A DNA stretch of 64,000 nucleotides, taken from assembly GCA_019694755.1 (NCBI GenBank), contig JAIBBI010000011.1, positions 1-64,000 on the forward strand, written 5' to 3'. Under the pieces are notes generated by a model. The model searched no databases, had not been told where the DNA came from, and saw nothing but the letters and a program-made list of their open reading frames with translations. This DNA comes from Gemmataceae bacterium. Its GTDB lineage: Bacteria > Planctomycetota > Planctomycetia > Gemmatales > Gemmataceae. Shown piece after piece: positions 5,177 to 20,799 of the stretch. Position 1 is the stretch's first letter, and each line of letters starts with the position of its first letter. The translations under genes and the position numbers were made by a program.

Positions 5177-8100
5177 TCAGGATCGACCGAGCGTCCGGCG
5201 AACGATATCGAGAAGTTCCTCAGGAAGAAACGGCTTCTGCAGGAACGGCTGATCGCCGATCTCGCCACGGGTGTTGCCCGCCCCCGTGTAACCGGACATG
5301 AAGACGACTCGGAGGTCGGGGTGCGAGGCCTGGAATCCACGAGCGAGATCGGTCCCGTGCATTCCAGGCATGATTACGTCGGTAAGGAGCAGATCGACAC
5401 GAGGGCCCGTCTCGGAAAACGCCTGCCGGGCCGACTCGGCGTCGACGGCCTCCAGTACTCGATAGCCCTGCCCGCGCAGGATTCGTCCGGTCAATTCACG
5501 CACCGCAGTATTGTCTTCGACAATCACGATGGTTTGGCCGGGTGTGACCTTCGGAGGCTCGGATCTTGGCTGACTCTTGGGTTCCGCATCGCCGACAGTG
5601 GATTTTCCGACGGGTAAGTACAGTTCGAAGCGGGTGCCCGAATTCAATTCACTCTCGACTCGGATGAACCCGCCGGCCTGCCGAACGATGCTGTAGACCG
5701 TTGCCAGTCCGAGTCCTGTCCCGTGTTCCTGCTTGGTCGAAAAGAAGGGTTCAAAGATGCGGGCGCGGGTTTCGTCGTCCATGCCCACCCCGGTATCGGC
5801 GATGGCAAGTCGGATGAACTTTCCCGGTTGAACATCAGGTTCCGCGCCGACGGTACGACGGTCAACATCGACTGCGGAAGTCATCACCGACAGCGTCCCA
5901 CCGTCGGCCATGGCGTCGCGGGCGTTGACAGCCAGGTTCATGAGGATCTGGGCAAACTGATCGGGGTTGAGCAGAGTCGGGGGCAGATCGGGTGCCAGTG
6001 TCGTCTGAATCGTAATGTCTTCGCCGATCAGACGACCGAGGAATTCACGAAGTTTTCCGATCTCGGAATTGATGTGCAACTCCTGGCGTCGGACGGATTG
6101 CTGCCGGCTGAGGGAAAGAAGTTGACGGGTCAGCGCGGCTCCGCGGTGGCCGGCTTCGACGATCTGCTCGGCGGCATGGCGGAGCGGGTCGCCGGGTGAT
6201 AGGGAGGTGCTGACCAGTGACCCGTACCCGATGACAATGGAAAGCAGGTTGTTGAAGTCGTGGGCCACGCCACCTGCCAGCCGGCCGACGGCTTCGAGTT
6301 TGGCCGCCTGCCGGACCTGCGATTCGAGGCGGACGCGTTCGGAAATGTCACGGGTGCAAGTGATGATGTCGGCAGATTCGTCGTATTTCGGACCCGCACG
6401 GCGGGAGGTGGTCTCGACCCAGACTGGCGAGCCGTCCTTCCGTAGGAGCCGGAGAATGATGGTCACGGTCCGGGCCTCGCCAAACGTCTCTTGATGTCGG
6501 GCGTTTCGAAGGTCCCGGTCGTCCGGGTGTACAAAATCGAATTTGGACCGTTGTACCATCTCTTCAGGCTCATAACCCAGAAGAGCCCGGCACGCGGGCG
6601 ATGCATAGAGGATAATGCCGTCGGAAGATTGGCGGGTAATCAGGTCGCCGGCGTTCTCCGCAATCAGGCGATACCTTGCCTCGCTGTCCTGCAGCCTCGC
6701 CGCTGCATCCCGTTGTGCTGTGATGTCCTGAGTCGTGCCCATGATCCGATCGGGCTGAGTTCCCTCACCGGCGACAAACCGGCCGTGCCAGAAGACCCAC
6801 CGGACTTTTTTGTCTCGGCGGATGATCCGGTATTCGATCGACTGCTCGGCCTTCGTTTCCCTGATCTTGTTCCAGACGGCGAGGAATCGTTCGCAGTCCT
6901 CGGGATGGACGACGTTTACTATGAAATTTTCCCAGCGGACGGGCGAGCCGGGAATCAATCCGAAGATGCGGTACGATTCCGGCGACCAGAATGAGTTTTC
7001 GCCGTCGACTTCCGATTCCCAACTCCCGATCCGGGCCATCATCTCGGCTTGGTTGAGCAGCGTCTGCATCTTCAGGACGCGTTCGTACGCCTGTTTGCGG
7101 TCGGTTATGTCCCGGCTGATTCCGAAAAGGCCGACGATCTTACCAAATGTGTCACGAATCGGTTGCGTGCGTGCGTCGACCCAAATGGGTGTACCGTCCT
7201 TACGGTAGTCCATCCATTCGCCAACAAACTCCTCGCCGGACCGAATTGAATGATGGAGGCGAATGACTTCTTCACGGCGAGAACCGGAGTAAGTCTCCCA
7301 GATCGGTCGGCCGAGCCGCTCACTAGCGCGGTACCCGAACATCCGCTCAGCGGCCCGATTGTAGAATGTGACAATCCCCTCAGCATCCGTCATGACGACT
7401 GCATCGCGTACCTGAGAGAATAGAAACGCGTACCGCTCACGCAGTTCGTCCGTTTGCTGTCGCTGCCAGGTCACGATAACGTCTAGCAGGCTGAATCGGA
7501 TTGTCTCCGCGGCAATCGCCCGCTCGCCGAGCGTCCACGGCTCGCCGTATCCGCGAACTTCCTCCGGGATCCCTTCGAAGTCCTTGCGCGGATGGAAGAC
7601 GAGGGTACCGTCGACATGGGAGATGCCGGTTTTCGGATCGCCGCCCCACGTCAGGCGGCGGATTTTTTCCCTCCGCGTCCAGATAAGCCAACTTCGCTCC
7701 GATTGCGGGACACGCAGCGCCATTACGCCGCAGATCTGCGGGCTCAGGTGTGCGAACTCTGGTGCTGCTTTCGAGAGGCAGTCAGTGACAAAAAGGCCTC
7801 GTTGGGAGTTTGATTCCAGCCAGTCAGCCAGCCGGTGCCACTCCTCTTTGGCCGGCATTTCGCCCTCACAGTACGCCTCCGACGGGGTGACGAGTGTGCA
7901 GTCGTCCGCCGCCACCAGAGACCGTAACCCGTGTTCGGTATCCAGAAGTCCAGTCGCCCAATGCGGACCCCGGCCAACGAATGCCGGAATCTTCTGCAGT
8001 TTCTCCTGGGCGTGACGTGCTTCCGTGGTTTGCTCGCGGAGTGTCCGATTCTCAATCCGATCTGCAATCATTCGGGCGGCGATGCGGAAGAAGCGGCCTA

Positions 8101-8923
8101 GTCGTGCCGACGGCCACCTGGGTTCGCGGTGATGACACGACAGCATGCCCCAGAGCCGACCGTCGACGATGATCGACGCCGAAAGTGAAGCGGAGACTCC
8201 CATGTTGCAATAAAAGCCCTTGCAGCATTCGTGGAAAGCTCGCAGTCGGGCCCCGGAGAGATCGACTCGAAGGTCTGGGTGTTCCAGAATCAACGGAATG
8301 TCAGCATGCTTGGCGTCGCCGAGGGCGTGTACGGCATGAGTTTCGTAGAGTTGGCGGGCCTGAGGGGGAATGTCGGACGCCGGGAACCAGTACTCGAGAA
8401 ATGGCGTCATTCCCGGCTGGACGACCTCGGCGATGACTTGGCCGTGCCAGTCGTCGTCGAACCGGTAAAGCATCGTGTGGTCGTACCCCAGAACCGGAGC
8501 GAGTTCGCGGACGACATGACGCAGGTCGGCGATGGTGTCCGGCAGGGACCGGGTCATTGCGTCAAAAAAAAGTTCGGACTCACATGCCGGGTCGAAACCC
8601 GGGCGAATGAACTCGACGATCCGGACACCGCCGGTCCGATGAACGCGCCCTTCGAGATCCCGGTGCCGGAATTCGGCCGAGCCAGTGATGCGATCAAGGG
8701 GAGGGCACGAAAACACTTGATCCGAGGCGGTGCCCAAGAGTTCGTCGGGGGTTCGTCCAAGATACTCCGCAGAGTTTGCGCCGCAACCCGTAATCCTCCT
8801 GGTATCGTCGAGTACTAGAAGAGCGCCGTGCGGCTGGACGAAACGCGGTGCAGCCACATCAAACCCGGCGCAGAGCTCGAGCGCTTCCTTCGGAACTTCC
8901 CAGGCGGCGAGCCGGTCGGTCAT
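5177..8923 (-). CDS. Bacteriophytochrome hybrid histidine kinase with three extra PAS domains and a receiver domain
   Basis: The protein has 1248 residues. It has a PAS-GAF-PHY photosensory core (about 20-495), PAS domains at about 500-610, 625-740 and 748-865, HisKA with AHDFNN (His888), HATPase with NLAVNARDAM, DTGVGM and GTGLGL (about 990-1105), and a receiver domain with Asp1182. Chromophore signatures are clear: Cys18 followed eleven residues later by QPHGALL (the biliverdin-linking position of bacteriophytochromes), PASDIPPQARQLY (181-193), SCHH (262-265) and the PHY tongue motif WGGDP (426-430). The GAF segment AFHECCKGFYCNMG also carries Cys233 where cyanobacterial and plant phytochromes attach bilin. 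Cys234 replaces the usual histidine. It is divergent from the kinase/regulator pair at 9016-10357, and a heme oxygenase and a bilin reductase lie on the same island. No membrane segment is present, so it is cytosolic. Confidence 0.9.
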   Translation of the reverse strand: MTDRLAAWEVPKEALELCAGFDVAAPRFVQPHGALLVLDDTRRITGCGANSAEYLGRTPDELLGTASDQVFSCPPLDRITGSAEFRHRDLEGRVHRTGGVRIVEFIRPGFDPACESELFFDAMTRSLPDTIADLRHVVRELAPVLGYDHTMLYRFDDDWHGQVIAEVVQPGMTPFLEYWFPASDIPPQARQLYETHAVHALGDAKHADIPLILEHPDLRVDLSGARLRAFHECCKGFYCNMGVSASLSASIIVDGRLWGMLSCHHREPRWPSARLGRFFRIAARMIADRIENRTLREQTTEARHAQEKLQKIPAFVGRGPHWATGLLDTEHGLRSLVAADDCTLVTPSEAYCEGEMPAKEEWHRLADWLESNSQRGLFVTDCLSKAAPEFAHLSPQICGVMALRVPQSERSWLIWTRREKIRRLTWGGDPKTGISHVDGTLVFHPRKDFEGIPEEVRGYGEPWTLGERAIAAETIRFSLLDVIVTWQRQQTDELRERYAFLFSQVRDAVVMTDAEGIVTFYNRAAERMFGYRASERLGRPIWETYSGSRREEVIRLHHSIRSGEEFVGEWMDYRKDGTPIWVDARTQPIRDTFGKIVGLFGISRDITDRKQAYERVLKMQTLLNQAEMMARIGSWESEVDGENSFWSPESYRIFGLIPGSPVRWENFIVNVVHPEDCERFLAVWNKIRETKAEQSIEYRIIRRDKKVRWVFWHGRFVAGEGTQPDRIMGTTQDITAQRDAAARLQDSEARYRLIAENAGDLITRQSSDGIILYASPACRALLGYEPEEMVQRSKFDFVHPDDRDLRNARHQETFGEARTVTIILRLLRKDGSPVWVETTSRRAGPKYDESADIITCTRDISERVRLESQVRQAAKLEAVGRLAGGVAHDFNNLLSIVIGYGSLVSTSLSPGDPLRHAAEQIVEAGHRGAALTRQLLSLSRQQSVRRQELHINSEIGKLREFLGRLIGEDITIQTTLAPDLPPTLLNPDQFAQILMNLAVNARDAMADGGTLSVMTSAVDVDRRTVGAEPDVQPGKFIRLAIADTGVGMDDETRARIFEPFFSTKQEHGTGLGLATVYSIVRQAGGFIRVESELNSGTRFELYLPVGKSTVGDAEPKSQPRSEPPKVTPGQTIVIVEDNTAVRELTGRILRGQGYRVLEAVDAESARQAFSETGPRVDLLLTDVIMPGMHGTDLARGFQASHPDLRVVFMSGYTGAGNTRGEIGDQPFLQKPFLPEELLDIVRRTLGRS

Positions 8924-10543: not shown

Positions 10544-11767
10544 ATGCCCCTGACCTTCACCGACGATCCGCTGCTCGCGATGCTCGTTCGGGAGAAAGTA
10601 CTGGCCCCGGCCGACGCGGACGCTCTTCGGGCCTGGCACGACGCCGACGGCGGCGCGGGCGAATCGATGGTGGAGTTCCTGACCCGGCAGAACATCCTCG
10701 ACCGCTCCGCCCGTCGGGCGATCGACCTGAACTTGAAGGGCTACGTCGGCTCGATCGACCTCGCCTCGATCTGGCCGGCCGGCAAACTCGAAGACATCCG
10801 ACGCCGCTTTGAGCGTGCCGGGACGACCCAGATCGACGCCCCCCGGACGACTCACTCGGCCGTGCCGATCTTTTCGACGATGGAGGCCGGCAGTCTGGAC
10901 TCCATCGACACGCCGCCGACATTCGAACGCCCATCGATCGGCAGCCGGGTCGGCCGTTGCCTGCTGACAGAACTCCTCGCCGAGGGCGGCGGGGGCATCG
11001 TCTATCGGGCGCTCCATCAGGGGTTGAACATCCCTGTGGCCGTCAAGCTGCTGAGCACCGCGCGGGCCCGGACGGACTTCCGCAAGCGGTTGCAGTCCGA
11101 GGCACGGTCGCTCGCCCAGTTGGATCACCCCAACGTCGTGCGCGTGCTGGATCACGACGACTCGGATCCGCCGCACCTTGTCCTCGAATACGTGGACGGA
11201 CCCAATCTCGCGGACCTGATCCGACAGGCTGGCGCGATCCGGTACGACCGGGCCCTTTCCATCATCCGGCAGGCAACGGAGGGTTTGCAGGCGGCCGAGC
11301 AAATCGGCATCCTGCACCGCGACGTCAAGCCGGCGAACATCCTGATGACAAGGCGCGGCGTGGCCAAGGTCGCCGACTTCGGCCTCGCCGTGCCCACGAC
11401 CGGCCAGAACTCGGCCGTCCCCCTCGGGCTGTCCGGCACGCTACCGTTCATGTCCGAAGAGCAACTCGTGTGCTCGCCGACGATCGATAGCCGAGCCGAC
11501 ATCTACTCGCTGGGCGTGACATTCTACCAGGCTGTGACCGGTCGGCTCCCGTTTCGGGCGCGGACCTGCCACGAACTGGTGGCGGAGATCCGGTCGGGAC
11601 GGTTCGAGCCGCCGCACAACTTCGTGCCCGGCCTGACGCCGGACGTGTCGCACGTGATTCTGCGGATGATGGCCCACGCCCCGGCTGACCGCTACCCGGG
11701 CTACGCCGACCTGTTGGCCGACCTGACGGAACTCGCCCATCGTGCAAAGGAAGGGGGGAATCGATGA
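10544..11767 (+). CDS. Soluble Ser/Thr protein kinase, first gene of the bilin operon
   Basis: The protein has 407 residues. Residues 1-130 form an alpha-helical N-terminal region resembling the leader domain of many planctomycete kinases. The kinase domain (about 132-400) has a glycine loop LLAEGGGGIVYRA, the ATP-binding lysine in VAVKLL (Lys168), catalytic HRDVKPAN (Asp260) and DFG at 278-280. No transmembrane helix is seen, so it should act in the cytosol. Its kinase domain is closely similar to that of the next gene (RCLLTEL...IVYRALHQGLNIPVAVK here, KCLLTEK...VVFRALHKALNLPVAVK there), suggesting tandem duplication. Its stop overlaps the next start in ATGA at 11764-11767, so the two are translationally coupled. 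Confidence 0.88.
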   Translation: MPLTFTDDPLLAMLVREKVLAPADADALRAWHDADGGAGESMVEFLTRQNILDRSARRAIDLNLKGYVGSIDLASIWPAGKLEDIRRRFERAGTTQIDAPRTTHSAVPIFSTMEAGSLDSIDTPPTFERPSIGSRVGRCLLTELLAEGGGGIVYRALHQGLNIPVAVKLLSTARARTDFRKRLQSEARSLAQLDHPNVVRVLDHDDSDPPHLVLEYVDGPNLADLIRQAGAIRYDRALSIIRQATEGLQAAEQIGILHRDVKPANILMTRRGVAKVADFGLAVPTTGQNSAVPLGLSGTLPFMSEEQLVCSPTIDSRADIYSLGVTFYQAVTGRLPFRARTCHELVAEIRSGRFEPPHNFVPGLTPDVSHVILRMMAHAPADRYPGYADLLADLTELAHRAKEGGNR

Positions 11768-13392
11768 AGAAGATCTCCCTCGAACCGATCCACGATACGT
11801 GTGAAGTCCGGACCGGAACGCCGCTGCTCCAAGCCTTGCAGGCGAAAAAGCTGAACGTTCTGGCCTCCTGCGGCGGACGCGGACTGTGTGCGACCTGCCA
11901 TGTGCATGTCAGGAAGGGAAGCGAGGCGCTCTCGCCCCGCAACGACCGGGAGTCGCGGACGCTTTCGTTCATCTCCGGAACTTCTCCGGAGAGCCGGCTG
12001 GCATGCCAGGTCCGCGTGTACGGTCACGGCGCTGTGGTGGAACTGCCACGCGGCATGTACATCGAACGGGCCGAGGACCTGCTCGACCTGCTCGGCACCC
12101 GCGCCCCGGACGACATCCTCCACCCGGTCACCGGCATCGTGCTGGTCGCCCAGGGCAAGATCATCACGCGGGCCCGGATCGAAGAACTGAAGAACCTCGG
12201 CAACGAAGTGAAGCAGGCGCTCGGGAACACGACATCGACGGCGATCCCGCGCCCGAAACTGCCTCCGACTACGCCTGCCCCGATTCCGGTGCCGGAGGCT
12301 CCGAAGCCGACGCCGGTGGTCGAGCAACCCCGGCCGGTCAAGCCCGCTGTTGAACCGATGCCGGGCAGTTCCACCGTCATGGGTGCCCGGTTGAACGGCT
12401 CGACCTCCATCAGCGCGAGGCCCGAAGGTGGCGTACCCCGCCCGCCCGCCGCCGCGAAACTCGAAGTCGGCGCGCAGATCGGAAAATGCCTTCTCACCGA
12501 GAAGGTCGGGCAGGGGAGTTCCGGTGTCGTGTTCCGAGCACTGCATAAAGCCCTGAACCTGCCGGTGGCCGTCAAGGCCATCGTGTTGAAGGAACATCAG
12601 GAACTGCTCGACAACGAGAATGCCGACATCCGCCTCCGCCTGCGGGATGAGGCCCGGCTGATGGCGCAACTTAATCACCCGAACATCATTCGCGTGTGGG
12701 ACTTCGATGAAGAGTTCGAGTTCCCTTATGTGGTGCTCGAACTGGTCGAAGGGCTGAGCCTCGCAGAGTTGATCCAGCAGAGCGGCCGGCTCACGCTCGA
12801 CCGGGCCGCCCCGATCATCCGGCAGGTGGCCGACGGCCTCGCCGCCGCCTGGACAATCGGCATCGTTCACCGCGATGTGAAGCCGGGCAACATCCTGCTC
12901 ACGAAAGACGGTCGCGCCAAGGTCGCCGATCTCGGCCTCGCTTGGGTCGTCAACCGGGCAGATGCCACCAGCAAAACACCCACGCTGCCGGAAGGCACGA
13001 TGGCCTACATGGCACCCGAGCAGGCCGTCGGCAGCGACAAGCTCGACTTCCGCAGCGACATCTACGCACTGGGTGCGACCTTCTTCCATGCGATCACCGG
13101 GCGGATGCCGTTTCCGGGCCGGTCGTGGCAGGAAGTGATGATGAAGCACGCCCGCGTGCCGCTGGAGCCGCCGCACACGCTGGTCCCCGAACTGAGCCCG
13201 GCCGTCTCCGCCGTCATCGGCCGGATGATGGCGAAGGACCCGAATGACCGTTACCCGGATTACACCGCGCTGATGGCAGACATCGACGGTCTGCGAGTAC
13301 CCCGGAGCGATCCCGCCGCATCCGCTCCCGGGTCGTCGACGGTCGGCAAGTCGTCGAAATGGCTGGGCCTGTTCGGCGGACTCCGCCGGTAG
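11764..13392 (+). CDS. 2Fe-2S ferredoxin-Ser/Thr kinase fusion protein
   Basis: The protein has 542 residues. Residues 1-95 form a ferredoxin domain with ligand cysteines Cys36, Cys42, Cys45 and Cys81 (SCGGRGLCATCHVH, then RLACQVRV). Residues 96-155 repeat, almost residue for residue, the C-terminal tail of the stand-alone ferredoxin at 14802 (RGMYIERAEDL, DDILHP, RIEELK). A Pro-rich linker (about 160-230) leads to a kinase domain with VAVKAI (Lys271), HRDVKPGN (Asp371) and DLG at 389-391 in place of DFG. There are no membrane segments. A kinase carrying its own redox centre suggests that cluster oxidation or loading tunes kinase activity, or that the domain donates electrons while tethered to the complex. 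Both readings are inference. Confidence 0.88.
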   Translation: MKKISLEPIHDTCEVRTGTPLLQALQAKKLNVLASCGGRGLCATCHVHVRKGSEALSPRNDRESRTLSFISGTSPESRLACQVRVYGHGAVVELPRGMYIERAEDLLDLLGTRAPDDILHPVTGIVLVAQGKIITRARIEELKNLGNEVKQALGNTTSTAIPRPKLPPTTPAPIPVPEAPKPTPVVEQPRPVKPAVEPMPGSSTVMGARLNGSTSISARPEGGVPRPPAAAKLEVGAQIGKCLLTEKVGQGSSGVVFRALHKALNLPVAVKAIVLKEHQELLDNENADIRLRLRDEARLMAQLNHPNIIRVWDFDEEFEFPYVVLELVEGLSLAELIQQSGRLTLDRAAPIIRQVADGLAAAWTIGIVHRDVKPGNILLTKDGRAKVADLGLAWVVNRADATSKTPTLPEGTMAYMAPEQAVGSDKLDFRSDIYALGATFFHAITGRMPFPGRSWQEVMMKHARVPLEPPHTLVPELSPAVSAVIGRMMAKDPNDRYPDYTALMADIDGLRVPRSDPAASAPGSSTVGKSSKWLGLFGGLRR

Positions 13393-13430: not shown

Positions 13431-14060
13431 ATGGACATCGCCACCCGCCTTCGCGTCGCCATGGGGGCGACGCATTCCGCGATCGAACAACTGCCGGTGA
13501 GCAAAGCGCTCGTCGCGGGCACGGTCGGCCGGGACGAGTACCGGGCTCTCCTGTCCCAACTTCTGCTGGTACATGAGGCACTCGAAGACGAATTGTCCGC
13601 CTGCCCCGACGCGGCGGGATTCCTCACTCCGGACATGATGCGGGCCGACGCTCTTCGGGGTGATCTGGTGGCCCTCGGCGCGGAAAGCGTGGATCCCCCG
13701 TTCGGCGAAACGCTCCGGCTAGCCGAGCTGATGCACGCCTGGGCGGCCGTCACGCCGTGGAAGCTGATCGGGGCACTCTACATCTTCGAGGGGTCCCGGA
13801 TGGGATCGATGTTCCTCGTGAAGCCGGTCGCCCGCGCCCTCGGCGTGCCGGTCCAACCGGGCTACGGCGTCGACTATCACCTCGACGGACTGGCGACACG
13901 GCCGCAGACCTGGGCCCGTTTCAAGGTCGGGCTCGCGCAACTGCCGTTCACGGCCGAACAGTGGGACGAAGTCGTGTCCGCAGCCGAAGAGACCATGAAC
14001 GCCCTTTTCGATCTTTACGCCGCGATGGCGGATCACTCGGCATGCGTCCTGACAGCGTGA
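13431..14060 (+). CDS. Heme oxygenase (biliverdin-forming)
   Basis: The protein has 209 residues and starts after the ribosome-binding site GAGGAAC. The N-terminal helix carries the likely proximal heme ligand His15 in AMGATHSAIEQ, and the distal helix shows the signature GALYIFEGSRMGSMF (compare LYxLEGSxxGG in the family). The length fits bacterial heme oxygenases. The enzyme opens heme to biliverdin, CO and iron using reduced ferredoxin or another donor. Two ferredoxin domains are encoded next to it, and a bilin reductase starts 7 bp downstream. Biliverdin is also the standard chromophore of bacteriophytochromes such as the one at 5177-8923. Confidence 0.85.
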   Translation: MDIATRLRVAMGATHSAIEQLPVSKALVAGTVGRDEYRALLSQLLLVHEALEDELSACPDAAGFLTPDMMRADALRGDLVALGAESVDPPFGETLRLAELMHAWAAVTPWKLIGALYIFEGSRMGSMFLVKPVARALGVPVQPGYGVDYHLDGLATRPQTWARFKVGLAQLPFTAEQWDEVVSAAEETMNALFDLYAAMADHSACVLTA

Positions 14061-14067
14061 GGAAGCC

Positions 14068-14805
14068 ATGACGGCACAACTCGGCGAGCCCTGCATCGAC
14101 GTGACAGCATTGGCCACGCGCACCCACGCGGAACTGCGGGAGTTCGCTCCTGCCCCGCGTTACGTGCCGACGGAGTTGGCGATTGCTGTCGGCCTGAACG
14201 GACGGACCCGGCTCCACGCCCAGGCGATCGGTCTGGGACTGGATGATCTGACGGCCGAGTGCCGGCTGGTGACGATCCGCGGACTGACCGCGACGATCTT
14301 CAACTGCCTGATCGTGCCCGACCTGCCGGGCCGGACGCCGCTCTTCGTAGCCGACATGCTCGCCAGCCACGACGAATTGCGGATCGGCTTCTTCGACGTG
14401 CAGGTGCCCGGCGTGTCCGACGCCCTGCGGGAATGCGTGGCCGCGGAGACTTGGAAGCTGGTTGGCCGATACGCCCACCTCCCGGCCGACGATCCGCCGA
14501 CCTGGGCGGTCGCCCACTCGACCGGCGCGTACCTGTGCTGCCGGCCCGAGGGCGCGGAGCAGGCGGCCGAGCTGCTCGAGGCCTACTGGGATTACCTGAG
14601 TCTCTGGATCCAGATGGCCCGGCACCCCAGTGCGGCCGAAACGGCCCCGCCGGAAGGCGCGGCCCGGGCCCTGGCGGCCATGTTTGAGGAGCACCTGAGT
14701 TCCGCACCCAACCGGCCCTACCTCGAAAGACAATTCGGGACGCATTGGGCTCACCGGTTCTGCAACGAGTTTCTGTACCGGGAAGCCGGCGGAGATCGCA
14801 CATGA
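14068..14805 (+). CDS. Candidate ferredoxin-dependent bilin reductase (pre-PcyA/HY2-like)
   Basis: The protein has 245 residues, the usual size of PcyA-type reductases. The middle has the family pattern of paired strands: IFNCLIVPDLPGRTPLFVADML (residues 77-98, split here as IFNCLIVPD and PLFVADML), then the acidic strand IGFFDVQVPG (106-115, Asp110 a candidate catalytic acid). The C-terminus reads RPYLERQFGTHWAHRFCNEF, like the closing helices of the family. The gene sits between heme oxygenase and a ferredoxin and overlaps the ferredoxin start in ATGA. It should reduce biliverdin with ferredoxin electrons; the product cannot be predicted. Similarity to true PcyA is partial, so the pre-PcyA assignment relies on the neighbourhood as well. 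Confidence 0.72.
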   Translation: MTAQLGEPCIDVTALATRTHAELREFAPAPRYVPTELAIAVGLNGRTRLHAQAIGLGLDDLTAECRLVTIRGLTATIFNCLIVPDLPGRTPLFVADMLASHDELRIGFFDVQVPGVSDALRECVAAETWKLVGRYAHLPADDPPTWAVAHSTGAYLCCRPEGAEQAAELLEAYWDYLSLWIQMARHPSAAETAPPEGAARALAAMFEEHLSSAPNRPYLERQFGTHWAHRFCNEFLYREAGGDRT

Positions 14806-15281
14806 AAACCCTGGTCCTCGCACCCATCAACGAGGAAGTCACCGTCCCGACGCAGTCCAGCATCCTCCAGGCCCTTCTGGCGAAGGAACTGGAAGTACCG
14901 ATGGCCTGCAAGGGGAAAGGCGTCTGTGCCACGTGTCACGTGCACATCCGCGCCGGGCACGACCGCCTGACTCCGCGAACCGATCGCGAGAAGAAGACGC
15001 TGGGCTTCATTACCGGGGCGGACCCCAGCAGCCGGCTGGCGTGCCAGTGCCGGATCCTCGGTGAAGGCGTGGTCGTGGAACTGCCCAAGGGCATGTACAT
15101 CGAGCGTGCCGAAGACCTGATCGACCTCGTCGGTACGCGGGCGGCCCAGAACATCCTGCACCCGATCAACGGCTCGATTCTGATCGCCGAGGGCAAGCTG
15201 ATCACCCGGAGCCGGATCGAAGAACTCAAGCGACTCAACGTGGAAATGGACGAACTTCACAGCTCGATCGCCAACGATTGA
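14802..15281 (+). CDS. 2Fe-2S ferredoxin with conserved C-terminal extension
   Basis: The protein has 159 residues, counted from ATG 14802, which overlaps the reductase stop by 4 bp. Cluster ligands are Cys36, Cys42, Cys45 and Cys81 (CKGKGVCATCHVH and RLACQCR), the same numbering as in the ferredoxin-kinase fusion. Residues 90-150 form an extension shared with that fusion (KGMYIERAEDLIDLVGTR, then RSRIEELKRLN). A plant-type ferredoxin normally has about 95 residues, so the tail is an added module, perhaps for docking. It is the obvious electron donor for the adjacent bilin reductase and heme oxygenase. Cys83 is an extra cysteine beside the cluster. Confidence 0.85.
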   Translation: MKTLVLAPINEEVTVPTQSSILQALLAKELEVPMACKGKGVCATCHVHIRAGHDRLTPRTDREKKTLGFITGADPSSRLACQCRILGEGVVVELPKGMYIERAEDLIDLVGTRAAQNILHPINGSILIAEGKLITRSRIEELKRLNVEMDELHSSIAND

Positions 15282-15305: not shown

Positions 15306-16070
15306 ATGGCCGGACAGAACGGTACCCACACGGCAACGCGGCCGGCAAACCATGCCGGGACCGACCCTCTCCGCTACCTGCGGACCGAGAAGGCGAAAGG
15401 CGAAATCCGCGACGCGTTCCAGATCGTCCGCGGACCTCAGCCCGTCAAGCACAACTACTACACCGACGACCGGTTCTTCTCCCACGACAGCAAGGCCGGC
15501 ATCGTCCGCAACGTGTACGGCCAACGGGTGGTGCGGGTCAGCGAAGACTTCATCACCGGTCTGCTGGGCGGCCTCGAAGAAGAAGTCGGCGATGCCGCCG
15601 GCGAGATCATGTACAAGGCCGGCTACCAGTGGGGCCTGGAGGACATGAAGACATTCACTCCCCGCTGCCAGGAGGAGTTCGAAGTCGCCTTCCAGAAGAT
15701 GGGCATGGGCTTCATGCTCGAGACCTGGTGGTGGCCGCTGCAGATCGAGGGCTGGGGCGGCTGGCGGTACGACTTCCGCCAGGGCAAGCAGGGCCTGATC
15801 TTCATCGATCTGTTCGAGTCGGCCGTGGCCCAGTCGCTGGGCGACGTCGGTAAGGTGATGTGCTACTTCTACGCCGGGCTGTTCGCCGCGGTGTTCACCG
15901 TGCTGTCGAAGCGTGAACTCGCCTGCATCGAGATCCAGTGCTACTCGATGGGCGAGGACTTCTGCAAGTTCCTGATCTCGACCAACAAGCGCGTCAATGC
16001 CGCGGCCTTCTGGCGGAGCGAAGGGGCGACGAGCGCGGACATCATGAAGAAAGTGCGCGACGTCGCGTAA
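15306..16070 (+). CDS. V4R-domain protein, first copy
   Basis: The protein has 254 residues, with a strong ribosome-binding site (CCCGGAGGAGACCC) before ATG 15306. The C-terminal half ends in the V4R hallmark: Cys207, Cys212 and Cys220 in ACIEIQCYSMGEDFCKFLI. V4R domains are small-molecule binding modules known from BchJ-type vinyl reductase proteins and from sensors of aromatic compounds. The N-terminal 50 residues are polar and may be disordered. In BBAG clusters two V4R proteins flank the globin, as here, with a small protein between. Binding of a tetrapyrrole or of an assembly intermediate is plausible but not shown. Confidence 0.8.
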   Translation: MAGQNGTHTATRPANHAGTDPLRYLRTEKAKGEIRDAFQIVRGPQPVKHNYYTDDRFFSHDSKAGIVRNVYGQRVVRVSEDFITGLLGGLEEEVGDAAGEIMYKAGYQWGLEDMKTFTPRCQEEFEVAFQKMGMGFMLETWWWPLQIEGWGGWRYDFRQGKQGLIFIDLFESAVAQSLGDVGKVMCYFYAGLFAAVFTVLSKRELACIEIQCYSMGEDFCKFLISTNKRVNAAAFWRSEGATSADIMKKVRDVA

Positions 16071-16089: not shown

Positions 16090-16512
16090 ATGTCAGCTCT
16101 GTTACTCGATGGGCTCGCCGAAGCCCGCCGCATCGACGACCTGCTCGACGACGTGGTGGCCGAGGCGTTTGAGGAAAAGCCGGTCGCCATCGTTTCGACC
16201 AACAGGCAACCGCTGGGCGGCCTGCCGATCGGGCAGATCCTCCGCAATGTCAACTGGACCAACCGGCCGCGATACGACTGGCCGGCCCGCATCGACGCCG
16301 AGCCCGACGCGCCGCCTGCCGACGAAAGCGCGTGGGAGCGGTTCGCCACCCCCGTGGGCGCGCTCGGCCTGCGGGCGTTCCTCAACACGTGTCACTGGAC
16401 CAACGACGGGGTCGCCCCCGCCCGTCCGACTTTCGCGGCCGTCGGCGTCGCCCCCAAGCCGGTGCCGATAGCGACGGTCGAATCCGTGTTTGGCGGATTC
16501 GCCTGGGATTGA
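16090..16512 (+). CDS. Small protein with repeated aromatic motif, unknown function
   Basis: The protein has 140 residues and I do not recognise a domain. It contains two related segments, ILRNVNWTNRP (50-60) and FLNTCHWTNDG (97-107), and ends in VFGGFAWD. All three fit a pattern of a hydrophobic residue, Leu/Phe, two free positions, a hydrophobic or Cys residue, one free position and Trp. The same pattern appears twice near the C-terminus of the kinase at 17837 (FFDGFGWQ and AFRAFQWD). Connecting regions are rich in Pro, Ala and Asp and are probably disordered. It lies between V4R copy 1 and the globin with a 19-bp gap upstream. A scaffold or adaptor role through the repeated motif is the most natural reading, but is inference. 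Confidence 0.65.
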   Translation: MSALLLDGLAEARRIDDLLDDVVAEAFEEKPVAIVSTNRQPLGGLPIGQILRNVNWTNRPRYDWPARIDAEPDAPPADESAWERFATPVGALGLRAFLNTCHWTNDGVAPARPTFAAVGVAPKPVPIATVESVFGGFAWD

Positions 16513-16582: not shown

Positions 16583-17080
16583 ATGAACCCCGCAGTACTG
16601 GATGTCATTCGCGAGAGCGAGAGCCGATACCTCAGCGACCAGGAGATGCAGAGCATCCTGGAGTACACCGAATCCCTGCCGGAGCGGTTCCGCGCCGCCC
16701 GGGCCATCGAAGACATCGAAGACCAGATCGTCCAGGCAACGATTGATCAGGTCAAGAAACGCTACCCGAGCTTCGAGCGGTATCACCCGTCCGCATGGGA
16801 CAAGGGCTACCGCGACGTTCAACTCACCCTCCGGTACTGCGTCCAGGCGATGGTCTGGGAAGACCCGATGATGCACGAGGAAAAGCTGCTCGTGTGGCTC
16901 GGGACCATCCTGGCCTCGTTCGGCTTCACGCCGCAGTTCAACCGAGACACCTACGTGTTCCTGCGCGACAACGTCAAGCAGCGGGTGTCGGAAGACATCT
17001 ATTCGCGGCTCGCGCCGTTCCTCGACAAAAACATCGAGGTTCTGGGAGGCATCCCCGAACCGCACCAGCCCCTGGTCTGA
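16583..17080 (+). CDS. Phycobiliprotein-like globin (BBAG, bilin biosynthesis-associated globin)
   Basis: The protein has 165 residues, the length of an allophycocyanin subunit; ATG 16583 follows GGAG at 16571. The pattern matches phycobiliproteins: SESRYLSDQEMQSI at the start, RAARAIEDIEDQIVQAT in the first globin helices, then GYRDVQLTLRYCV where light-harvesting subunits read CLRDxxxxLR. The bilin-linking cysteine two residues before Arg-Asp is Gly75 here, while Cys86 lies further along the helix. The protein is therefore globin-fold and phycobilisome-family in character but not a standard antenna subunit. BBAGs in non-photosynthetic bacteria are reported to bind bilins (recalled literature). 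It is encoded between two V4R proteins, downstream of heme oxygenase and bilin reductase. Confidence 0.78.
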   Translation: MNPAVLDVIRESESRYLSDQEMQSILEYTESLPERFRAARAIEDIEDQIVQATIDQVKKRYPSFERYHPSAWDKGYRDVQLTLRYCVQAMVWEDPMMHEEKLLVWLGTILASFGFTPQFNRDTYVFLRDNVKQRVSEDIYSRLAPFLDKNIEVLGGIPEPHQPLV

Positions 17081-17103: not shown

Positions 17104-17763
17104 ATGACGACTGCGATGACGACCCCCGCCCGCGGCAACTACTACGCGGAGCGCGACTACCTGAAGACCGACGTGAAGCGGGGCGTGACCCGCAACCGCG
17201 CCGGCACCCGCATCCTGACTCTGACCAGCGACTTCCTCATCGGCCTGCGCAACGCGCTCGTCTTCGAGTGCGGCAAGGCGGCCGACGCGGTGATGAAAAC
17301 CGCCGGGCGGAAGTGGGGCACGAACTTCGCCGCCCGAACAGACAAGGAACTCGGAGCCTTCTACGGCCGGCCCGTCGCCGAGTTCCCCTTGGCTCTGTTC
17401 GAAGCCAGCATGGTGATGGCCTTCAGCCATCACGGGTTCGGCAAGCTGAAACTCGATGTCAGCATGTACGACAAAGGTCTGCTGGTCGCGATTGTCGAGA
17501 ACCCGATCTACTTCGGCCTCGTCGAAAACCCCGCCGGCCCGTCCGACGCGCTGCTCGCCGGTATCTTCGCCGGGATCTTCAGCCACTTCGCCGGCCGGGA
17601 GTTGGACTGTGCCCAAACGCAGTGCCAGGCGTGCGGTCTGCCCGACAGCCGGTTCGTGATCTCGCTGAAGTCCCGCCTCGGCGGCGTCGAAGCCTGGCTG
17701 AAAGACGGCAAGTCGCATGCGGAGATCCTCGCCGCCCTCGCACAGACGAAAGGAACCGAGTGA
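17104..17763 (+). CDS. V4R-domain protein, second copy
   Basis: The protein has 219 residues. The C-terminal V4R signature reads DCAQTQCQACGLPDSRFVI; compared with copy 1, the third cysteine is shifted toward the second and Ser replaces the last one. The N-terminal part (YYAERDYLKTDVKRGVTRNR) parallels copy 1 (YYTDDRFFSHDSKAGIVRNV), so the two genes are diverged paralogs that may form a heterodimer. It lies 23 bp downstream of the globin gene. The stop codon overlaps the start of a 10-codon open frame by one base. Confidence 0.78.
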   Translation: MTTAMTTPARGNYYAERDYLKTDVKRGVTRNRAGTRILTLTSDFLIGLRNALVFECGKAADAVMKTAGRKWGTNFAARTDKELGAFYGRPVAEFPLALFEASMVMAFSHHGFGKLKLDVSMYDKGLLVAIVENPIYFGLVENPAGPSDALLAGIFAGIFSHFAGRELDCAQTQCQACGLPDSRFVISLKSRLGGVEAWLKDGKSHAEILAALAQTKGTE

Positions 17764-17836: not shown

Positions 17837-19168
17837 GTGTTGCTGGTATCGTGTAGTGCAAGTGGGCCCGGCGGGATCGCGCCGCCGGACGATGGGGAAG
17901 TGGCCCGCCTCGCGGGCGACCTCGCCGCCGACCTGACTCCGCGCTACCACCTGCTCGGCTACGTCAACCGCGGTGCGTTCGCCACGGTCTGGCGGGCCCT
18001 CGACCGCCAGACGATGCAGACCGTCGCCATCAAGCGGTTCGACCCCGACCGCGCAGAGCGGGCCCGCGACTTCTACAGCGAGTTGCGAGCGCTGTTCCGC
18101 TTGCGGCATCCGAACGTGGTGCATGCGCTCAACTTCGTCGAAACGCAGGCCGGGCACCGCTGTCTGGTGCTCGAGTTCTGCTCGGGCGGCAGCCTGCGGG
18201 CCGTCGTCCGCCGGCAATGCAGTACCGGCCGCGGACTGCCCGCCGAGCAGGTGACCGATTGGCTCCGCCAACTGGCGGACGGTCTGGCCACCGCCCACGC
18301 GATCAGCATCGTTCACCGCGACCTGAAACCCGAGAACGTCCTGCTCGCACCGGCACCGACTGTTAGCCGGCACCGGCGGGTCCCCGTCGGGCCGCATCGG
18401 ACGGAATCGGCCTGGCCTGCTTTGAAGATCGCCGACTTCGGGCTGGCCCGCGGTCGGGCCGAGCGGAGGGGTGACGGTCGCCTCACGGGTCTGACCGGTT
18501 CGCCCGCCTACATGGCACCCGAGCAGTTCATCGGCAAGTTCACGCCCGAAAGCGACGTGTACGCCCTGGGTGTGATGACGTGGGAACTGCTGTTCGGCCG
18601 CCCGCCGTTCGCCGGGGGCCCCGAAGAACTCGCACGACAACATCTGCACGAACCGCTGCCCGATCTCGTAGCAGATGTGCCCTGGATGACGCTGTTGACC
18701 GACATGTTGGCCAAGGATCCCCACCGGCGGCCGAGCGCTGCCGAAGTTGCCCGGCGACTGGCCGGGCGGGAGACACTCATGCACGACCCGGAATCACTTC
18801 GGGCTCTGGAAGCCGAGGAAGAATCACTGTGGGGCGAACTGGCCGCGCTCGGAGCCTACTCCGCCGGCCCGCCAACACATGTGGAAGAGCCGTCGTTCGT
18901 CCTCAACGACGTGACCGAACTGGCGGCCCGACTGGTTGCCCCGACGGTTCCCCGCGCGGCCCCACCTTCGCCCGCGCTTCCGTCGGTCCGCTTGGCTCCG
19001 CCAGCGCCCGCCGCGCCGGTTCTGAAAGAAACGGCCCCGGCCGTGAACGGCTTCTTCGACGGCTTCGGCTGGCAGGCACCCAACGAGGCCGCCAGCCCCG
19101 CACCCGCACCCGTAACCGCACCCACCGAGACAAGCCATGACGCCTTTCGAGCATTTCAATGGGACTAA
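17837..19168 (+). CDS. Soluble Ser/Thr protein kinase with aromatic-motif tail
   Basis: The protein has 443 residues; GTG 17837 is preceded by GGGGAGAAC. The kinase domain (about 36-330) has GYVNRGAFATVWRA, the ATP-binding lysine in VAIKRF (Lys66), HRDLKPEN (Asp162), DFG at 200-202 and APEQ. Residues 345-443 form a Pro/Ala-rich tail with FFDGFGWQ (406-413) and the terminal AFRAFQWD (436-443), which match motifs in the small protein at 16090. That suggests the kinase and the small protein dock on the same partner. Synechocystis has a kinase gene (spkG) at the end of its V4R/ferredoxin operon, which makes a functional parallel likely (recalled). No membrane helix is seen. Confidence 0.85.
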   Translation: MLLVSCSASGPGGIAPPDDGEVARLAGDLAADLTPRYHLLGYVNRGAFATVWRALDRQTMQTVAIKRFDPDRAERARDFYSELRALFRLRHPNVVHALNFVETQAGHRCLVLEFCSGGSLRAVVRRQCSTGRGLPAEQVTDWLRQLADGLATAHAISIVHRDLKPENVLLAPAPTVSRHRRVPVGPHRTESAWPALKIADFGLARGRAERRGDGRLTGLTGSPAYMAPEQFIGKFTPESDVYALGVMTWELLFGRPPFAGGPEELARQHLHEPLPDLVADVPWMTLLTDMLAKDPHRRPSAAEVARRLAGRETLMHDPESLRALEAEEESLWGELAALGAYSAGPPTHVEEPSFVLNDVTELAARLVAPTVPRAAPPSPALPSVRLAPPAPAAPVLKETAPAVNGFFDGFGWQAPNEAASPAPAPVTAPTETSHDAFRAFQWD

Positions 19169-19181
19169 GCACGACGCGGGG

Positions 19182-19844
19182 ATGCGTCGGCCTTATGTCC
19201 TGACAGTCGCCAGCCACAAGGGCGGCACCGGGCGGACGACCGTCGCGCTCGCGCTGGCGTGGATCTGGGGCCAACTCGGCCGCCGGGTGTTACTCGCCGA
19301 CGCCGACCCGAACCGCTCGGCCGCTTTGATCGCCGCCGATGATGCCGGTGCGTGCCGCTGGCCCGGTGTCGACTTCATGGAAGGGATGCCCGCGCTCGAT
19401 CGATTGCCTCCCCCGGCCGACGTGATCGTCGTCGACTGCCCGGCCCTGACCGAGACCGGCGCGTACGACGTGCTGCGTCACACCGACGGTCTCGTACTGA
19501 CCTGCCTGGCGGACACGCTCTGCTTGCGGACCCTGCCGACGAGCACGACGGCGATCCGTGAGTCGGTGGCCGTCAACCCCCGGCTTCGGTTGCTGGGGTT
19601 GGTCATCAATCTGTTCGACGGCGCGGACCCGGCCCAGGTCCGGCTCGTGAATCGTATCCACAAAGCCGGCAAGCCGCCGCTGATCGGCTTGCCGATCCCC
19701 GTGCAAAACGCGGTCAGGGATTGGCCTCTGAACCCCGGGAGTGGATTCCCCGGCGGGACCGCCCGGGCCGCGTGTCTCGAACTGGCGTTCTCACTTCAGC
19801 AGGAACTTCGGCTCGGATCCACCAAATCGGCCGGGAGGTTCTGA
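19182..19844 (+). CDS. ParA/MinD-type P-loop ATPase, first copy
   Basis: The protein has 220 residues from ATG 19182; an in-frame ATG at 19137 would add 15 residues and overlap the kinase by 32 bp. The deviant Walker A reads SHKGGTGRTT, with the signature lysine kept but Arg in place of the second lysine. The switch region includes LLADADPNRS, and VVDCPA is the Walker B-like strand. Members of this family partition DNA or position complexes by ATP-dependent dimerisation on membrane or nucleoid. No parB or parS site is visible, so chromosome or plasmid segregation is not supported. It is followed four bases later by a second ATPase. Confidence 0.82.
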   Translation: MRRPYVLTVASHKGGTGRTTVALALAWIWGQLGRRVLLADADPNRSAALIAADDAGACRWPGVDFMEGMPALDRLPPPADVIVVDCPALTETGAYDVLRHTDGLVLTCLADTLCLRTLPTSTTAIRESVAVNPRLRLLGLVINLFDGADPAQVRLVNRIHKAGKPPLIGLPIPVQNAVRDWPLNPGSGFPGGTARAACLELAFSLQQELRLGSTKSAGRF

Positions 19845-19848
19845 TTCC

Positions 19849-20799
19849 ATGCGACGCATCCTGATTGCCAGTCAGAAAGGCGGAGTCGGTAAGACGACGA
19901 CTGCCGTCAACCTCGCAGCCGCGGCCGCGCTCGTCGGCCGGCGGACTCTGCTACTCGATGCCGACCCGCTGTCCAGCGTCGGGGCCTGCCTGAAACTCGA
20001 GCGGTCGGCATCCAAGCCGGCGTTCCCAGGCAACCCGGCTGCCGCCATCTGGAGCGACGTCCTGCCGGGGCTCGATGTGGTCAGCCCGTACTCGGCCGGT
20101 TCGTTTTCCGAAGATGAACTCGCCGACGGTTTGGCCGGTATGAAACGACTCCTCGACCGCGGCGCGTATCAGTTGCTGATCATCGACTCGCCGCCCTCGA
20201 TGTGGCAGCGGTCGCGCCGGCTGCTCGATGCCGCGGACGAATTGATTCTCGTCATGCGGGCCGAGCCGCTCGCATTCCGGACGCTCCCGAAGTACCTGGA
20301 GCAATTGAAGGCCGCACGCACGCCCGGCAGCCCGGGCCGGCTCCGCGGAATCCTGCTGACCGCGCCCCCGGGAGCGAAGCCCAACGGCGCGATGGAAAAG
20401 GAGATGAAGGAACGGTTCGGCAATCGCGCTCTGCCGGTGACGGTGCCGTTCGACAGCGAAGTGACGCAAGCTCAACTCATGGGAAAGCCGGTCGTCGCCT
20501 ATCGACCACACTCGCCCGGGGCGAATGCCCTCCTGGAACTGGCGTTAGCGTTGCAACTGATCGGCAAGAACGACAACGTGGCCCGTGCCGCCGCCCAGCC
20601 CGCTCCGGTTTTCAAATTTGCGGAAGAGACGCGCCCGGTCCTTCGCGACGCCGCCGAGGTTCTTCGCGAGCTGAAGCTGCCTCAAGCGGACGACACCGCA
20701 GCGATGTTCGATCCGGCCGCCCCGATCGGGGAGCAGCGGGATCGGCCAGTTTCCCGCATCCGCCGATGGCTCGACCGGCTGCGGGTGCTGACGCGATGA
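19849..20799 (+). CDS. ParA/MinD-type P-loop ATPase, second copy
   Basis: The protein has 316 residues, with a ribosome-binding site GGGAGG upstream. It carries a complete deviant Walker A, SQKGGVGKTT (signature Lys10, Lys15), then LLLDADP and LLIIDSPPS. The C-terminal 70 residues extend beyond the ATPase core and contain a basic end (RIRRWLDRLRVLTR). It is the last gene of the operon. Paired with the preceding diverged copy it may form a heterodimer that locates the bilin/kinase complex in the cell, or may be a relic of element maintenance. The sequence does not decide between these. Confidence 0.85.
   Translation: MRRILIASQKGGVGKTTTAVNLAAAAALVGRRTLLLDADPLSSVGACLKLERSASKPAFPGNPAAAIWSDVLPGLDVVSPYSAGSFSEDELADGLAGMKRLLDRGAYQLLIIDSPPSMWQRSRRLLDAADELILVMRAEPLAFRTLPKYLEQLKAARTPGSPGRLRGILLTAPPGAKPNGAMEKEMKERFGNRALPVTVPFDSEVTQAQLMGKPVVAYRPHSPGANALLELALALQLIGKNDNVARAAAQPAPVFKFAEETRPVLRDAAEVLRELKLPQADDTAAMFDPAAPIGEQRDRPVSRIRRWLDRLRVLTR

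Follow-up and report, generated by a model that had tools for sequence, protein, structure and literature searches.

A predicted ferredoxin-Ser/Thr kinase fusion conserved in Gemmataceae beside the heme oxygenase gene of a pre-PcyA-type cluster

Planctomycetes have been listed among the carriers of pre-1 type pre-PcyA gene clusters, and the cyanobacterial slr0144-slr0149 cluster has been derived by Rockwell and colleagues from clusters of this type (Rockwell, Martin, Lagarias, 2023, PMC10151467). In Synechocystis, the region slr0144-slr0152 contains an adrenodoxin-like ferredoxin with a C-terminal extension (Fed5, slr0148), together with a V4R pair and globins; the kinase of this region is SpkG (slr0152). 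Interactions of the Slr0144-Slr0149 proteins of this Fd5 cluster with one another were reported from co-fractionation and affinity purification (PMC9880817), an earlier article pointed out a kinase next to fed5 in cyanobacterial clusters (PMC4284462), and phosphorylation of Fd5 is reported to be lost in the spkG mutant (PMC11863333, citing Angeleri 2018). Here, we analyzed a 64,000-nucleotide stretch of a Gemmataceae bacterium genome (contig JAIBBI010000011.1, positions 1 to 64,000; hereinafter, the window), in which a single gene encodes both a ferredoxin and a Ser/Thr kinase.

By its content, the cluster in the window is a pre-PcyA gene set, with six Pfam matches over the cut-offs. Like the BBAG-containing pre-PcyA cluster of PMC10151467, it combines heme oxygenase and bilin reductase genes with those for an Fe-S protein, a V4R pair, and a phycobiliprotein-like globin. 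In the passages of that article consulted, Ser/Thr kinases are not counted among the core members and a ferredoxin-kinase fusion is not mentioned; the neighbors slr0150-slr0152 were set aside there. The likeness to the Synechocystis region extends to the ferredoxin with its extension, the V4R pair, the globins, and the kinase; however, in Synechocystis the ferredoxin and the kinase are separate genes, and the position of SpkG corresponds to that of the last kinase of our cluster (STK3), not to the fused kinase. A literature search limited to open-licence papers found no report of a ferredoxin-kinase fusion, and as far as this literature shows, the protein is an unreported combination of known parts.

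The original prediction, made from the letters of the window, that a ferredoxin is fused to a Ser/Thr kinase within a bilin operon proved genuine. The 542-residue product of one gene has two Pfam matches above the cut-offs, Fer2 at residues 10-85 (E=1e-9) and Pkinase at residues 245-497 (E=5e-48). The start codon is backed by a Shine-Dalgarno-like AAGGGGGG, the gene start overlaps the upstream gene by 4 bp, and M1 aligns with M1 of the orthologs. The predicted structure is confident for the ferredoxin (residues 1-155) and the kinase (about 238-510), while residues 157-228 have a predicted local distance difference test (pLDDT) score below 50.

The ferredoxin part is of the adrenodoxin/ISC type, with a beta-grasp fold and four cysteine ligands (Cys36, 42, 45, and 81) in the spacing CX5CX2CX35C, where the type has CX5CX2CX(~35)C. 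Its core matches the Fdx structure 1i7h (VIA Z 15.9, root-mean-square deviation 1.6 Å over 96 residues); past about residue 101-116, the model has no match among solved structures. The C-terminal extension, GMY...G.RA...LHPI.G.VL...GK.ITR, is kept from cyanobacteria to planctomycetes in a 53-row alignment of cluster ferredoxins and, together with the cluster context, places the fused domain among the Fed5/pre-PcyA-cluster ferredoxins. As initially proposed, the N-terminal 155 residues parallel the free ferredoxin encoded at 14802: about 150 residues of the fusion are 59-60% identical to it along the whole length of the free protein, extension included.

The kinase half is likewise intact, with a Gly loop at 249, VAVK (Lys271), the alphaC Glu296, HRD at 369-371, Asn376, D389LG instead of DFG, and APE at 417-419. 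The Pkinase domain and the presence of the Lys, alphaC Glu, HRD, Asp-x-Gly, and APE elements assign it to the Hanks-type (PknB-like) Ser/Thr kinases. PknB is matched by Foldseek at 34% identity, and PknA and PknB are the closest solved relatives. The kinase domain is similar to theirs in both fold and sequence, but the protein has no PASTA domains and carries a soluble N-terminal ferredoxin instead. Mycobacterial PknG is likewise a single chain in which a small metal-binding redox-type domain precedes a Hanks-type kinase. In PknG, however, this domain is rubredoxin-like and directly adjoins the catalytic core (PMC8546545), and a TPR domain is present, whereas the fusion has a [2Fe-2S] ferredoxin, a long disordered linker, and no TPR. 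A PknG assignment was not adopted, as Pfam shows only Fer2 and kinase families, with neither a rubredoxin-like nor a TPR match.

Among 95 genomes of the same family, cluster-type ferredoxins were found in 17, and nine intact fusion genes in eight genomes from six genera (G000, G001 with two copies, G027, G265, G066, G120, G185, and G127), some of which are named Gemmataceae metagenome-assembled genomes. A tenth copy, in G300, has the ferredoxin and the kinase in different frames, with the shift within the linker; the heme oxygenase of this genome is likewise split between frames, and both splits are likely sequencing errors. Draws from the class (397 genomes) and the phylum (392 genomes) showed no fusion outside the family, and among the best 80 loci of an 84,980-species scan, mostly cyanobacterial, fusions occurred only in three records from genomes already counted. 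No loss of a cluster ligand was observed, all four cysteines (C36/42/45/81) being present in 10 of 10 fusion ferredoxins. All nine intact fusions share Lys271, Glu296, His369-Arg370-Asp371, Asn376, Asp389, Gly391, and Pro418-Glu419. Full-length identity of the orthologous intact fusions to the window protein is 44-55%, and the linkers (62-153 residues, 48-70% Pro/Ala/Ser/Thr/Gly) show no conservation.

Judging by these sequences, the ferredoxin-kinase fusion is a real and conserved architecture. Chance or a local frameshift as its source can be ruled out because eight more intact orthologous fusions exist. An accidental gene fusion of little functional consequence in a kinase-rich lineage seems very improbable. 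Such an accident would agree with the roughly 108 kinase matches in this genome and with the detection of the fusion in one family only, but not with its presence in at least eight genomes of six genera, with both active sites intact at the above level of identity and in a nearly constant genomic place.

The constant element of this place is the heme oxygenase gene, which directly adjoins the fusion gene for nine of the ten copies; only the fusion at L033 is solitary and lies outside any cluster. In the window, the two genes are separated by 38 bp, and the bilin reductase comes one gene later. Hence, the original prediction was right that a reductase belongs to the operon, but not that the fusion lies beside it. 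The proposed tie to the reductase is not supported as a general one. A whole-genome search found PF05996 in only three (G000, G027, and G265) of the nine fusion-bearing genomes and did not detect it in the other six, one of which is a single contig with 99% completeness. This excludes a bilin reductase as the general partner of the fusion, and the gene neighborhoods make heme oxygenase a better candidate. G001 has no cluster-type ferredoxin other than its two fusions (the next match is distant, E=3e-8), and therefore the fused domain must serve there.

The family also contains a second cluster type, with a ferredoxin, two V4R proteins, and two phycobiliprotein-like globins (L034, L036, L040, L065-L069, L073-L076). 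In most cases a heme oxygenase is encoded within or near it, while a bilin reductase is absent from most of the genomes; compared with the clusters of PMC10151467, this related planctomycete type keeps the heme oxygenase without the reductase. Since most such genomes lack the reductase, its globins may bind biliverdin or something else.

The origin of the two parts was assessed from phylogenetic trees. In the ferredoxin tree, the fused domains are grouped between two clades of free ferredoxins; the fused domain of the window and its G027 counterpart form a pair (support 97/88), as do the free ferredoxins of the window and G027 (89/95). The duplication inside the operon that was initially suggested is rejected as a recent event: the two ferredoxins of the window as sisters yield p=0.0008 in the approximately unbiased test. 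Forcing both ferredoxins of G000 and G027 into one clade is weakly disfavored (p=0.071), and a duplication further back in the lineage of the cluster may have occurred. Neither the ferredoxin (p=0.37) nor the kinase (p=0.107) data reject a single origin of the fusion, while this topology is absent from both trees.

The fused kinases fall within a lineage of cluster-adjacent kinases that is separate from 28 of the 29 further kinases drawn from the same genome (Shimodaira-Hasegawa-like approximate likelihood ratio test, SH-aLRT, 99). Seventeen cluster-associated kinases of this lineage, including the upstream kinase STK1, start with a domain of about 80 residues (10544-10830 in STK1), the match being weak in one (G459); this domain has no Pfam match, and all nine fusions lack it. 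Most simply, this suggests that a copy of the [2Fe-2S] ferredoxin of the cluster took the place of the N-terminal domain of the kinase lineage.

A second kinase lineage is represented by STK3 (17837), which groups with the correspondingly placed kinases of cyanobacterial clusters (SH-aLRT 97), these having been selected for the kinase tree by position, with the sequence of SpkG itself left out. The fused kinase falls outside this cyanobacterial cluster-kinase clade, and its assignment as an SpkG ortholog is not supported. Because the planctomycete and cyanobacterial kinases form one clade, an STK3-type kinase may be an ancestral member of the cluster. In planctomycetes, in many cyanobacteria (L085-L156), and in one deltaproteobacterial metagenome-assembled genome (L128), a Ser/Thr kinase is encoded after the cluster or at its flank. 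Two kinase lineages are recurrent neighbors of the cluster.

For the function of the fusion we favor a reading to which we would give an even chance, namely, that the ferredoxin docks the kinase onto a heme-oxygenase/V4R/globin complex, the protein being a cluster-specific kinase whose N-terminal domain was replaced by the cluster ferredoxin. The fused ferredoxin would bind where the free cluster ferredoxin binds, i.e., at the heme oxygenase and the V4R/globin complex, and could pass electrons at these sites. Once docked, it would hold the kinase beside its substrates, probably cluster proteins (ferredoxins, heme oxygenase, V4R, or globin), and their phosphorylation would in turn adjust the supply of electrons for heme opening. 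Such a protein would join in one chain the ferredoxin-kinase link reported for Fd5 and SpkG. A long, unconserved linker with pLDDT below 50 is what one expects of a tether, and supports docking.

The linker also bears on redox gating, a modified form of the initial proposal, in which kinase activity would be switched by whether the [2Fe-2S] cluster is oxidised or reduced and would report electron supply to the heme-oxygenase pathway. This explanation is possible but unlikely. The four ligands are retained in all fusions, the ferredoxin occupies the site of the other, possibly sensory, N-terminal domain of the lineage, and a precedent is provided by PknG, whose metal-binding rubredoxin-like domain lowers catalysis by limiting access to the active site (PMC8546545). 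On the other hand, a variable, predicted-disordered linker weighs against rigid coupling, unlike the arrangement in PknG; no conserved docking element was detected between the ferredoxin and kinase domains; and the retention of the cluster can be explained by electron transfer alone. We regard as doubtful the more specific variant in which the kinase is gated by a fused ferredoxin that itself feeds heme oxygenase, so that heme-to-bilin turnover is read out electron by electron as phosphorylation.

The ferredoxin might also be neither a sensor nor an anchor but a substrate, with the kinase phosphorylating its own and the free ferredoxin and thereby switching the flow of electrons to heme oxygenase. 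The SpkG-dependent phosphorylation of Fd5 in Synechocystis (PMC11863333), the role of the fused domain as the only cluster-type ferredoxin in G001, and the adjacency of heme oxygenase are consistent with such a self-regulating carrier, but the lineage of the fused kinase differs from that of SpkG, and we consider it unlikely.

Several observations weigh against the docking reading as well. As the fused kinase belongs to a clade other than that of the SpkG-position kinases, the Fd5-SpkG precedent is indirect; one fusion, that at L033, has no cluster around it; and the substrates and electron partners are derived from the identity of neighboring genes. Finally, with about 108 kinase matches in the genome, kinases join many proteins in these bacteria. 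The latter calls for caution with regard to single kinase neighbors, but not to a fusion that six genera have retained in almost the same location.

The operon has the order STK1, fusion, heme oxygenase, bilin reductase, ferredoxin, V4R, small protein, globin, V4R, STK3, and two ParA-like genes, with intergenic spacing ranging from a 4-bp overlap to 73 bp (Table 1). The ParA-like ATPase genes lie 3' of the cluster (19137-20799) and are also seen at loci L032, L035, L039, L070, and L071.

Table 1. The fusion gene, its parts, and surrounding genes (positions in the window)
Feature	Positions	Strand	Remarks
Bacteriophytochrome hybrid histidine kinase	5177..8923	-	divergent, upstream of operon; probable bilin user
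Upstream Ser/Thr kinase STK1	10544..11767	+	kinase lineage of the fusion; ~80-aa N-terminal domain in place of the ferredoxin; 4-bp overlap with fusion gene
Ferredoxin-Ser/Thr kinase fusion gene	11764..13392	+	542 aa; single open frame; Pfam Fer2 and Pkinase
[2Fe-2S] ferredoxin domain, residues 1-155	11764..12228	+	adrenodoxin/ISC-type core 1-97 (C36, C42, C45, C81); conserved C-terminal extension 97-150
Pro-rich linker, residues about 156-238	12229..12477	+	predicted disordered
PknB-like Hanks-type Ser/Thr kinase domain, residues about 239-510	12478..13293	+	catalytic residues intact
Heme oxygenase	13431..14060	+	PF01126, 1.7e-20; direct downstream neighbor of fusion gene
Ferredoxin-dependent bilin reductase	14068..14805	+	PF05996, 3.4e-12, over cut-off
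Free ferredoxin	14802..15281	+	paralogous to fusion residues 1-155
V4R-domain protein (first)	15306..16070	+	Pfam
Small cluster protein	16090..16512	+	conserved in G027, G265, G011, and G017 clusters; no Pfam or NCBIfam match
Phycobiliprotein-like globin (BBAG type)	16583..17080	+	PF00502, 2.8e-21
V4R-domain protein (second)	17104..17763	+	Pfam
Downstream Ser/Thr kinase STK3	17837..19168	+	clade of kinases in corresponding cyanobacterial clusters (SpkG position)

The phycobiliprotein-like globin has one cysteine (in LRYC), seemingly away from the usual chromophore position. The bacteriophytochrome contains an N-terminal cysteine (C18) and a GAF cysteine pair, C233/C234, right before the NMG motif; the latter is at the position of the phytobilin-binding cysteine of Cph1. 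This protein might use the product of the bilin reductase and not biliverdin alone. A related phytochrome adjoins the fusion cluster in G027, G120, and G185.

Because the fusion gene is nearly always next to the heme oxygenase gene, the fusion probably couples the production of bilin pigments to a switch by phosphorylation, and it points to regulation at heme oxygenase and not at bilin reductase. The cluster is related to the presumed ancestor of cyanobacterial light-harvesting pigment genes, and the fusion shows kinases to be a recurrent part of it. With both activities predicted in one chain, the link of the cluster ferredoxin to phosphorylation becomes directly testable.
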